Source: an uncultured Pelagibacteraceae bacterium (GTDB lineage Bacteria > Pseudomonadota > Alphaproteobacteria > Pelagibacterales > Pelagibacteraceae). Taken from it: 64,000 nucleotides of DNA. The stretch lies in the NCBI GenBank assembly GCA_902627045.1, contig CACOHP010000001.1:62001-126000 (forward strand), given 5' to 3'. The position numbers and the translations under genes were made by a program. A model generated the notes under the pieces. The model did no database searches, was not told the DNA's origin, and saw only the letters and a program-made list of their open reading frames with translations. Shown here piece by piece: positions 52,455 through 54,804 of the stretch; the stretch's first letter is position 1, and each line of letters starts with the position of its first letter.

Positions 52455-53888
52455 TTACTTTTTGCTAACCTTTTTTGATTTTTTAGCTACTGCTTTGGTT
52501 TTTTTGATTTTTGGCTTTGTTTTATTTTCTGCTGACTTTTTTACATCAGCTTTTTTTTCAGGTTTTCTTTGATCTTTCAGTTCTTGATCGAGTTGTTGTT
52601 TTTGAGATTCTTTTAAAATTTTTTCAGCTTCATCTTTAGAAATTTCCTTTTTATTAGACTTAGCTTTTTCTTTAATCATATTTAAAATTTTTTCTTCATA
52701 AACAGTCCCTCTCAAACTCGCTAGAGCATTCGGGTTTTTTTTGTAAAATTCCATGACCATTTTTTCTTGACCTGGCATCATTCTAATTTGTTTTTGTACT
52801 TCAGTTTGTAATTCCTGTTCAGTAACTTTTATTTGGTTTTGCTCACCGAATTCATTCAATACTAATCCTACTTTAATTCTTTTTTTTGCAACTTCTTCAA
52901 AATTTTTTCTACTTTTTTTTGCATCATCCTCTGACATACCTTGAGAAAGTATTTTGATTTCTTCCTCTAATAAATTTTCTGGAATTTCGCTTACTTTAAA
53001 TTTTTCAATTTCTTTTAATATCTGATTTTTCGTCAAACGATCTAGTGAGTTTTTATACTCATCATTTATTTGTTTTGTTATTAACGACTTAAGATCATTT
53101 AGATCTTTTGCTCCTAAATTTTTGGCAAACTGATCATCAATTTTTACTTCTTCAGGAATTTTAACAGCTGAAATTGTACATTTAAATTTTGCTTTTTTGT
53201 TAATAAATTCTTTCTCCGGAAAATTTTCAGGTAGTGTTGCCTCTACAATTTTTTCATCTCCTTTTTTTACTCCAATTAGTTGTTTATCAAATCCTTTTAA
53301 AAAAAGATCTTTTCCTAAAGTTAATTGAGTATTTTTACCCTCACCCCCTTTAAATGTTTTTTCGTCAACTGTTGCATTGTAATCAAAAACAACCAGGTCT
53401 CCTTCCTTTGCTATAGTTGTTTCAGAGGCTTCTTTAAAGTTTGGTTGATTCTTTGCAATATCTCTTATTCTTTTATCAGTTTCCTTTTGATCAATTTTAA
53501 CTGTGTAATCATCGAACTTAATATTCTCTATTGACTTTAATTCAACTTTTGGAAGTTCTGTAACAGATAAAACATATTCTAAATCTTTGTCTTCACCATA
53601 AGTTTTAAGATCTAATTTTGGTTGACCCGCTGGTTTAATTTTATTTTCTTGTAAAGCTTTTGTTGATGTTTCCTTCAAGACTTTATCTAAGACCTCACTA
53701 AAAACAGCTTTACCAAACTGTCTCTTTAAAATTTCTCTTGGTACTTTACCAGGTCTAAATCCCTTAAGATTAACGGTTCCTTTAATCTCTTCATATTTCT
53801 CATCCATGTAAACATTCATTGTCTTTTTATCGACAAAAACTTTTACATCTTTATTTAAACCTTTTTTATTTTCGACTGTTACTTTCAT
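52455..53888 (-). CDS. tig: Trigger factor, ribosome-associated chaperone
   Basis: First chaperone to meet nascent chains at the ribosome exit, with a peptidyl-prolyl isomerase domain. I set the start at the ATG at 53888 ([15 protein letters not shown], 477 residues). The frame stays open to 53972, but those 28 codons read through a repeat-rich leader. The ribosome-binding signature is [17 protein letters not shown]; the FKBP-like domain contains [21 protein letters not shown]; the C-terminal chaperone arms follow. The last 70 residues are an unusual Lys/Glu-rich tail ending in repeated Lys-Lys-Ser-Lys motifs, longer than in E. coli (432 residues). Confidence 0.94.
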
Positions 53889-53906
53889 GCTTTGTTCTAA
53901 TTTAAA

Positions 53907-54000
53907 CTGAATTGGAATTGGTAGACGCGTTAGTCTAGCCGAATCTGACAATTCAGGTATTGGTAGACGCACTATTTTACTAAACTAACGTGTCTACCAT
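53907..54000. repeat. tRNA-Leu-like repeat block in the tig leader
   Basis: ATTGGTAGACGC occurs at 53917-53928 and again at 53959-53970, exactly 42 bases apart, and an inverted, slightly changed copy lies at 53990-54000. The first copy extends to resemble the D-arm and anticodon-stem start of bacterial tRNA-Leu. A 19-base inverted repeat (53920-53938 with 53980-53998, 17 of 19 matching) and an 8-base one (CTGAATTG 53907-53914 with CAATTCAG 53949-53956) overlay it. The two stems cannot form together as simple hairpins. The block lies between tRNA-Leu and tig and is probably transcribed with both. Confidence 0.65.
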
Positions 54001-54001
54001 T

Positions 54002-54085
54002 TGGTAGGCGAGAAAGGACTTGAACCTTCACCTCTTACGAGACGAGTTCCTAAGACTCGCGTGTCTACCGTTCCACCACTCGCCC
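54002..54085 (-). tRNA. tRNA-Leu (anticodon TAG)
   Basis: A class II cloverleaf on the minus strand, 84 bases with encoded CCA. The acceptor stem GGGCGAG pairs with CTCGCCT (one G-T), the D arm contains GGTAGACACG, the anticodon stem CGAGT/ACTCG closes loop CTTAGGA with anticodon TAG, a long variable arm (TCTCGTAAGAGG) follows, and GGTTCAAGTCC forms the T arm. It lies upstream of tig. Confidence 0.96.
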
Positions 54086-54103
54086 AACTCAAAAATTTAG
54101 TGT

Positions 54104-54131
54104 CTTATATATTATTGAAGTTAATTGTCCA
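54104..54131 (-). promoter_or_regulatory. Sigma-70 promoter of tRNA-Leu (and probably tig)
   Basis: On the minus strand, TGGACA (54131-54126) and TATAAG (54109-54104) are spaced by 16 bases, each 5 of 6 to consensus. Transcription would begin about 11 bases before the tRNA-Leu 5' end. No other promoter is evident before tig. The -35 lies within a perfect 8-base inverted repeat (54122-54141). Confidence 0.6.
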
Positions 54132-54221
54132 ACGACAATTATAAATTAATCATAAAGTTTAGAAAGAAACCTATACATATAAAAATGAAAATGGTATTTT
54201 TTTGAAAAAAACTTAAAAAAA

Positions 54222-54395
54222 ATGAGCAAAACTTCAATAGTTCTAATTATATATATTTTGGGTTTAGTTTTTGGAGCATTAGTTCTAGGAATTTGGAGTG
54301 CAGAGACTAGTGTTTTTAAAGGGCTTCTCGGTTTAGGGTGGACAGCTTTAGCATTAATAGGTTTATTTTTTGCTGAAAAAAATGAAAATAGTTAA
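54222..54395 (+). CDS. 57-residue two-span membrane micropeptide
   Basis: An open frame from ATG at 54222 to TAA at 54395. Two hydrophobic segments (about 5-24 and 34-51, LLGLGWTALALIGLFFA) flank a short polar loop, and the C-terminus is charged (EKNENS). It overlaps the next gene by 14 bases, which suggests coupling. No family is recognised. The start lies in an A-rich stretch without a clear ribosome site. Confidence 0.5.
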   Translation: MSKTSIVLIIYILGLVFGALVLGIWSAETSVFKGLLGLGWTALALIGLFFAEKNENS

Positions 54396-54804
54396 GTCAT
54401 TTATTATTCTCTTTTTCGTATTTTCACCAATTAATATTTTAAAATCAGAAATTATTGTCATGAGTAAGTGTGATGATAAACAAGATGAGTTTCTAAAGAA
54501 TGAGTACATTCTTAATTTAAATGAGCAAATAATGACTAGAAATTATGTTTACAAAGAAAAAACATTTCAAAAATATAGATTAACAGATTTAAGTGTAAAA
54601 AAATCTAATTCATACGTGCAAAATATATACGAAGAGGATGGAAAAATTTTAACTCACAAGCATGGGTATCCACAATTTTATACCCAAATTTTGTTTGAAA
54701 AAGATAAAAAAGAAATTTTTATGAGAACAGTCCTAAATGATGAAGAGGGCCTTTCAAAAATATCAACATGTAAAAAAATAGAAAAATTTGAAAAAGAGAG
54801 TTAA
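54382..54804 (+). CDS. Hypothetical secreted protein
   Basis: 140 residues from ATG at 54382 (MKIVKSFIILFFVFSP). A TTG at 54370 in frame is a less likely start. The first 25 or so residues look like a signal peptide (positive N-terminus, hydrophobic core, LKSE junction). The rest is hydrophilic, Lys/Glu-rich, with two cysteines (CDDKQD near residue 33 and STCKKI near the end) that could pair. No family is recognised. It follows the 57-residue micropeptide in an overlapping pair and meets a minus-strand micro-ORF at its stop codon. Confidence 0.7.
   Translation: MKIVKSFIILFFVFSPINILKSEIIVMSKCDDKQDEFLKNEYILNLNEQIMTRNYVYKEKTFQKYRLTDLSVKKSNSYVQNIYEEDGKILTHKHGYPQFYTQILFEKDKKEIFMRTVLNDEEGLSKISTCKKIEKFEKES

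Follow-up and report, generated by a model that had tools for sequence, protein, structure and literature searches.

A hairpin leader before the trigger factor gene of a SAR11 bacterium, probably a scar of pelagiphage integration

Introduction

How did a trigger factor gene in a SAR11 (Pelagibacter) bacterium come by a leader that is built from pieces of a tRNA-Leu gene? The locus lies in a stretch of 64,000 nucleotides (the window) of a genome that is 82% complete, and the gene, which we presume to encode trigger factor (tig), stands downstream of the leader and of a tRNA-Leu gene (Table 1). The original prediction, made from the sequence alone, had offered two answers, a relic of duplicated tRNA-Leu genes or a tRNA-mimic switch that controls trigger factor. 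Pelagiphages bear on the same site. HTVC011P, HTVC025P and uv-Fonsiphage-EPL have been reported to integrate in tRNA-Leu(TAG), the prophage being flanked by trigger factor, and a pelagiphage has been reported to carry its own tRNA-Leu, which replaces the lost function (PMC6811365). In the open-access literature searched, this is the one paper found on trigger factor, tRNA-Leu and SAR11 together, and none was found on a scar in the tig leader.

Table 1. Features at the tRNA-Leu/tig locus of the window
Feature	Position	Strand	Basis and remarks
tRNA-Leu (anticodon UAG/TAG)	54002..54085	-	ARAGORN; phage-type, at the place of the ancestral gene in relatives
tig leader	53889..54001	-	113 nt, built from pieces of tRNA-Leu half-genes; nearest tig relatives are without a leader
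Sense arm S	53980..53999	-	tRNA-Leu 5' half, D-arm to anticodon stem
Inverted arm A2	53956..53979	-	tRNA-Leu 5' half, antisense; second of the two copies
Inverted arm A1	53914..53938	-	First plus-strand copy of the original prediction; pairing partner of S
Short stem, 5' side, CTGAATTG	53949..53956	-	Read from the sequence; identical 8-bp stem in the G533 fold
Short stem, 3' side, CAATTCAG	53907..53914	-	18 nt upstream of the ATG; read from the sequence
Putative promoter of the tRNA-Leu/tig unit	54104..54133	-	TTGGAC ... TATATA, picked by eye on the alignment; similar in aligned relatives
Probable recombined cassette	53838..54138, approximate	-	Promoter, tRNA, leader and first codons; common to G033/L085-like strains; identity profile, rough borders
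tig, presumed trigger factor	52455..53888	-	Open reading frame and relatives; presumed family

Repeats and Arms in the Leader

The 12-base repeat ATTGGTAGACGC occurs twice on the plus strand, as predicted, at 53917-53928 and 53959-53970, where it forms part of a 24-nt repeat, and it exceeds what shuffled sequences give. With at most one mismatch, TTGGTAGACGC occurs twice in the 64-kb window, a number reached by none of 100 shuffles. Two 19-nt arms of the minus strand, 53998-53980 and 53938-53920, are joined by 17 Watson-Crick pairs and a single G-U pair, with one position mismatched, and no other arm pair of such quality lies within 120 nt in the window (the pair is seen in two overlapping registers). 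Among ten first-order Markov control sequences, one contained two arm-pair hits, both of low GC, and nine contained none. The two competing pairings that had been described, one of 7 bases and one between CTGAATTG and CAATTCAG, 18 bases upstream of the ATG, are likewise present. The CCA of the tRNA-Leu is encoded, and the first leader arm begins two bases beyond it.

The resemblance of the first plus-strand copy to the D-arm and anticodon stem of tRNA-Leu extends to all arms compared. In each of thirteen arms at six loci the similarity to the 5' half of tRNA-Leu(UAG) begins at position 12-15 and runs into the anticodon region, S in the sense and A in the inverted orientation, with 16-24 matches over 22-28 nt (raw counts without a chance control), and the host and phage tRNAs fit them almost equally. 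The six loci, all of one genus, are the window, G033, G533, L085, G110 and G189. A second inverted arm is present in the window, G033 and G533 and absent in L085, G110 and G189. The hairpin of G110 has arms of 24 nt that form 22 pairs around a 5-nt loop, and its inverted arm holds the anticodon-loop sequence of a host tRNA plus one extra base. Over the 21 nt compared by eye, its two arms are three transitions apart, as is expected of a decaying palindrome.

The proposal of a relic of duplicated tRNA-Leu genes is thus supported as to the material, which is the 5' half of tRNA-Leu(UAG), though in another form, with sense and inverted halves at a pelagiphage site and no tandem duplication. A tandem duplication was rejected because only 5' halves occur and both A arms are inverted. 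A dispersed palindromic element was also rejected, as the spacer, searched against its own genome (82% complete), matched nothing beyond itself except for two weak hits over part of its length (E 0.15 and 0.28). ARAGORN finds no tRNA inside the leader and makes one call in the region, at 54002-54085, so the leader holds no complete cloverleaf. With Rfam over 53300-54700 only tRNA reaches the gathering score; nine further matches (E ≤ 10) all fall below theirs. When 53800-54300 was scanned with consensus patterns, a single further promoter-like site came up (shuffle mean 1.9, i.e., fewer than by chance) and no terminator. In the window no stop codon interrupts the tig frame between a GTG at 53972 and the ATG, and the leader is likewise open in L085. 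An N-terminal extension of trigger factor from this GTG is probably not coding, as G033 and G533 have an in-frame TAA.

The tig Locus in Relatives

A search of genome contigs gave 505 relatives of tig; among the best 80 of them (L064-L143), 75 have an ancestral tRNA-Leu(UAG) gene that ends 8-13 nt before the tig ATG and no leader; the ten best hits (L064-L073) are all in this ancestral state. Since the gap is only 8-13 nt, tRNA processing in such relatives would leave a tig mRNA that is nearly leaderless. L074 and L085 have a tRNA of the window type and leaders of 115 and 73 nt, respectively, and L107 and L138 have a prophage end at the tRNA-Leu/tig site. L074 and G033 have an identical leader, are probably one genome and were counted once. 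In L110 (1907-1990) a tRNA-Leu of the window type replaces the ancestral gene, with a gap of 10 nt to tig and no scar.

The identity of the window with these relatives is mosaic. Compared with L064 and L067 in steps of 50 nt, it shows 76-98% identity on the upstream side of -300 and 80-98% past the ATG, whereas between -250 and the ATG the promoter and tRNA are 60-76% identical and the leader is missing in both. Over this same region identity is 80-96% with L074 and 90-96% with L085 outside its deletion. Just past the ATG, L074 (94%) and L067 (90%) hardly differ. Since the window resembles L074/L085 more than L064/L067 in this region, homologous recombination has probably brought into the strain a cassette, about 300 bp long, that comprises promoter, tRNA-Leu and leader.

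The Pelagiphage Attachment Site

Prophages occupy the site in several relatives. At the right ends seen in G056, G064 (which is L107), L138 and G189, the order is integrase, complete tRNA-Leu, arm repeats, core, 3' half of the host tRNA and tig; at the left ends in G189, G064 and G056, the 5' half of the host tRNA is followed by the P' arm. A wider scan covered 56 loci, i.e., 52 of 64 integrase loci together with L153, L154, L156 and L157, of which L156 reads N there. A forward tRNA-Leu(tag) lies within 900 nt after the integrase match at 48 of the 56; one locus has a tRNA-Leu(taa) and seven have none. A repeat of 9-14 nt of the tRNA-Leu(tag) anticodon region follows the phage tRNA at 42 of the 56 loci, and the remainder consists of seven loci with no tRNA called, six with a tRNA and no repeat, and one (L235) that repeats another tRNA-Leu, taa. 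On the strength of these two counts and of the prophage ends, the pelagiphage loci fit tRNA-dependent lysogeny, and the attB core of about 10 bp lies in the anticodon loop of the tRNA, as is characteristic of a scar of such lysogeny.

Phage sequence is also found beside the hairpin. In G110 and G189 about 100 nt between the tRNA and the hairpin can be aligned with prophage P' arms, with order and orientation preserved. Of the six comparisons, five gave 67-69% identity over 62-98 nt (best E 1.7e-8), and the sixth (G110 against G064) extended over 18 nt only (E 0.016). Among the matches listed, only those of G110 and G189 extend beyond the tRNA end. The leaders of the window, G033, G533 and L085 showed no P' arm, and it is G110 and G189 that tie the leader to phages. 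The order of P' arm and then hairpin is unlike the product of one clean integration or excision, which counts against reading the leader as a scar. In G189 (L164, 7880-9648) a prophage lies in the tRNA-Leu gene upstream of an older scar of P' arm and hairpin, and the arrangement suggests that this site has been used at least twice.

A phage-borne hairpin was considered and rejected. Three exact-pattern scans, covering viral contigs and phage records, gave no hit, and a further viral pattern scan gave three, all in GC-rich contigs without tRNAs. The hairpin model R1 reached a best E of 0.093 in viral loci, and a search of plasmids for the hairpin gave three weak hits (E 0.3-1). A single integrase protein, used as the query, retrieved no viral contig, and an integrase profile, run without a positive control, had no match in the window's own genome (82% complete).

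Origin of the tRNA-Leu Gene

The tRNA-Leu of the window is 76% identical to the ancestral host gene and 88% identical to the tRNA of phage HTVC011P. Outside the group of window type, phage tRNAs and G110 come nearest to it, each with 92.9% identity. The G033/L085-type tRNA is up to 96.5% identical to a phage tRNA, and that of G110 is 97.6% identical to one. A second, full-length tRNA-Leu of the ancestral type was not found in the window's own genome, 82% of which is available. The simplest reading is that a phage tRNA was captured as the working gene. Against it stand the short length of the gene, 84 nt, and the tRNA tree, in which host and phage genes interleave and which does not fix the direction of transfer. 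This interleaving weighs against the scar explanation, as does the comparison of the leader with third codon positions of tig given below.

Proposed Course of Events

Taken together, we consider it likely that the leader is a scar of pelagiphage integration beside a phage-type tRNA, in all likelihood without a function as a switch. At the tRNA-Leu(UAG) gene before tig, temperate pelagiphages recombine within the anticodon loop and supply a tRNA-Leu(UAG) of their own in place of the one that they break. In an ancestor of the strain the prophage may then have been lost, while the phage-type tRNA-Leu was kept as a working gene under the host promoter. Pieces of the att site and of the broken tRNA would have remained between this tRNA and tig, one of them being a palindrome of the tRNA-Leu 5' half, first sense and then inverted. 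The palindrome may stem from replication snap-back at the anticodon stem-loop, the mechanism that we favour. As an alternative to snap-back, the hairpin may be a junction of the attL type; model R1 matches the left end of the G189 prophage weakly (E 0.025). In some lineages the inverted arm would have been duplicated, giving the 42-nt repeat. The cassette may have spread among strains by homologous recombination and would now be decaying.

Folding, Distribution and Alternative Explanations

The strongest competitor is a functional RNA hairpin, either an RNase III site or insulator that parts the maturation of tRNA-Leu from the tig mRNA, or an element that tunes tig translation. The predicted folds speak for it. 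The stretch 53905-54001 folds at -33 kcal/mol (z -5.95, equalled by none of 200 shuffles), preferably with the first arm joined to the last; the shorter alternative by itself reaches -12.9 kcal/mol (z -3.47). The leaders of G033 (z -6.72), G533 (-6.38) and G110 (-8.23) also fold strongly. Overall, five of the six loci have strong folds (z -3.8 to -8.2), with G189 as the exception (-2.2), a result that counts against the scar explanation. However, the favoured partner differs between loci, S pairing with A1 in the window and G033 and with A2 in G533, and 75 of the 80 relatives have no leader at all.

Model R1 points to a narrow distribution of the hairpin. Four of the six hairpins went into the model and match it by construction, while G189 and G533 are new. 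Matches were obtained in 5 of 399 genomes of the genus, one of them (G137) solely at the tRNA gene itself and dropped, and in 3 of 387 genomes of the family sample, within 1 of 14 genera. L085, which came from a separate search, completes the six loci. The two samples overlap and were drawn from larger groups, and many of their genomes are incomplete, which makes absence soft.

Compensatory change in the stems, which the original prediction had proposed as a check, did not exceed that in shuffles, and this lack of compensation also argues against a functional hairpin. When the 21 pairs are scored at all six loci, 79.8% of the cells are paired as against 80.7% in shuffles. The covariation score is 0.089 as against 0.105, and 426 of 500 shuffles score as high, with the low power of six sequences. 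One pair alters on both sides, 8 of the 21 pairs are invariant, and another 8 depart by broken cells only. Pairing drops to 32.5-39.5% when the structure is slid along the alignment, a drop to be expected of any inverted repeat. Arm A1 of G033 has two changes, read from the leaders, that strengthen its pairing with S and favour function, yet quasipalindrome correction would presumably make the arms agree in the same way.

The conservation of the leader can be read in both directions. Leader identity lies above that of tig third positions in most pairs of loci, e.g., 0.83 against 0.67 between the window and G033, which favours function, whereas it does not in three of the four pairs that involve G110, and in all ten locus pairs compared its conservation falls short of that of promoter and tRNA. 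Either constraint or a shared recombined cassette could explain identity above third positions. If transcribed, the leader should form its hairpin, and none of the tests run shows selection keeping it. All considered, a functional hairpin appears unlikely. Slightly different is the idea that the host kept an essential tRNA derived from phage and that the palindrome of att and tRNA pieces, now the tig leader, sets the processing of the tRNA-tig transcript by its hairpin, which we regard as a rather improbable outcome.

A third alternative takes the hairpin as a recombination site, in which two inverted integrase half-sites that resemble half of attB are read by the pelagiphage integrase. The arms do equal the 5' half of attB, and G189 shows that phages still integrate beside such a scar. 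However, the core TCTTAGGA is intact in none of the six hairpins and in G189 it is the core of the tRNA gene that has been joined, which makes such a site very doubtful. A switch that senses or mimics a tRNA by means of two mutually exclusive hairpin sets can hardly be upheld: two alternative pairings exist and the arms copy the D-arm sequence of tRNA-Leu, yet no T-box model is among the 10 Rfam matches with E ≤ 10, the arms hold 5' halves only and no tRNA that ARAGORN finds, and both observations that had been named in advance as speaking against a switch were made, the absence of repeats and stems from near relatives and stems that change without covariation (six sequences, low power).

The attP Stem of Pelagiphages

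A second structure became apparent on the phage side. After integrase and tRNA-Leu, the attP core stands in the loop of a stem-loop, the arms of which vary from phage to phage and match within each phage (L153, L154, L155, L157 and viral loci within L218-L271). Of 48 loci taken in, five without a second core were dropped (L243, L244, L246, L266 and L157), leaving 43 segments, 36 of them distinct. The predicted fold has at least six core-spanning pairs in the 36 distinct segments (a raw count without its own control), with a median z of -2.85 and single values up to -0.3. When arms were swapped among 14 clusters (44 segments grouped at 75% identity, some sharing arm sequence), own arms formed 11.9 pairs on average and swapped arms 7.7, a difference reached by none of 20,000 permutations. 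The own partner ranked first, alone or in a tie, in 7 of the 14 rows and 10 of the 14 columns. Shuffles that keep base composition only were as good in at most 4 of 100 cases for 11 of the 14 clusters, the exceptions being L221, L249 and L259. The 5' arm ends 16-28 nt before the core in 10 of the 14 clusters.

Integration would separate the two arms, and the stem could in this way report the integration state; a sensor of that state or a terminator is a possible role. A narrow literature search found no paper on an attP stem-loop with integrase retroregulation. The covarying attP stem is a testable feature of pelagiphages. That the leader hairpin is itself an attP stem-loop of a phage is not favoured, as it has a short loop and no intact core.

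Comparison with Known Systems

T-box leaders are leader RNAs that stand upstream of a gene and are tied to a tRNA. Unlike them, the window leader copies pieces of a tRNA, and no Rfam match is found here. Quasipalindrome mutation by template switching has been described as making and perfecting inverted repeats at DNA that forms hairpins, and what we propose here is a snap-back at the anticodon arm of a tRNA. At the level of a survey, marine proviruses have been reported to have tRNA-Leu as one of their integration hotspots, which agrees with the set of tRNAs carried by temperate viruses of the sea (PMC10533544); that survey is not known to describe a scar or a leader.

A close likeness is to pelagiphage integration in tRNA-Leu(TAG), which shares the tRNA gene, the flanking tig, the phage tRNA-Leu and a core of 11 bp (PMC6811365). 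Unlike the prophages described there, the window is without a prophage and has a phage-type tRNA and a palindromic remnant. Such loci suggest what phages that break and replace a tRNA may leave behind once lost, namely a phage-type tRNA that is kept and a palindromic scar that serves as the leader of a housekeeping gene. They also advise caution, as a strong and non-random leader hairpin can be a relic. Mycobacteriophages with tRNA-dependent lysogeny are reported to share a core of about 10 bp, a host tRNA that is not rebuilt and a phage tRNA of the same isotype that covers the loss (PMC10865867). The phages and tRNAs are different ones in that system, and in the SAR11 strain studied here the phage-type tRNA seems to have outlasted the phage.
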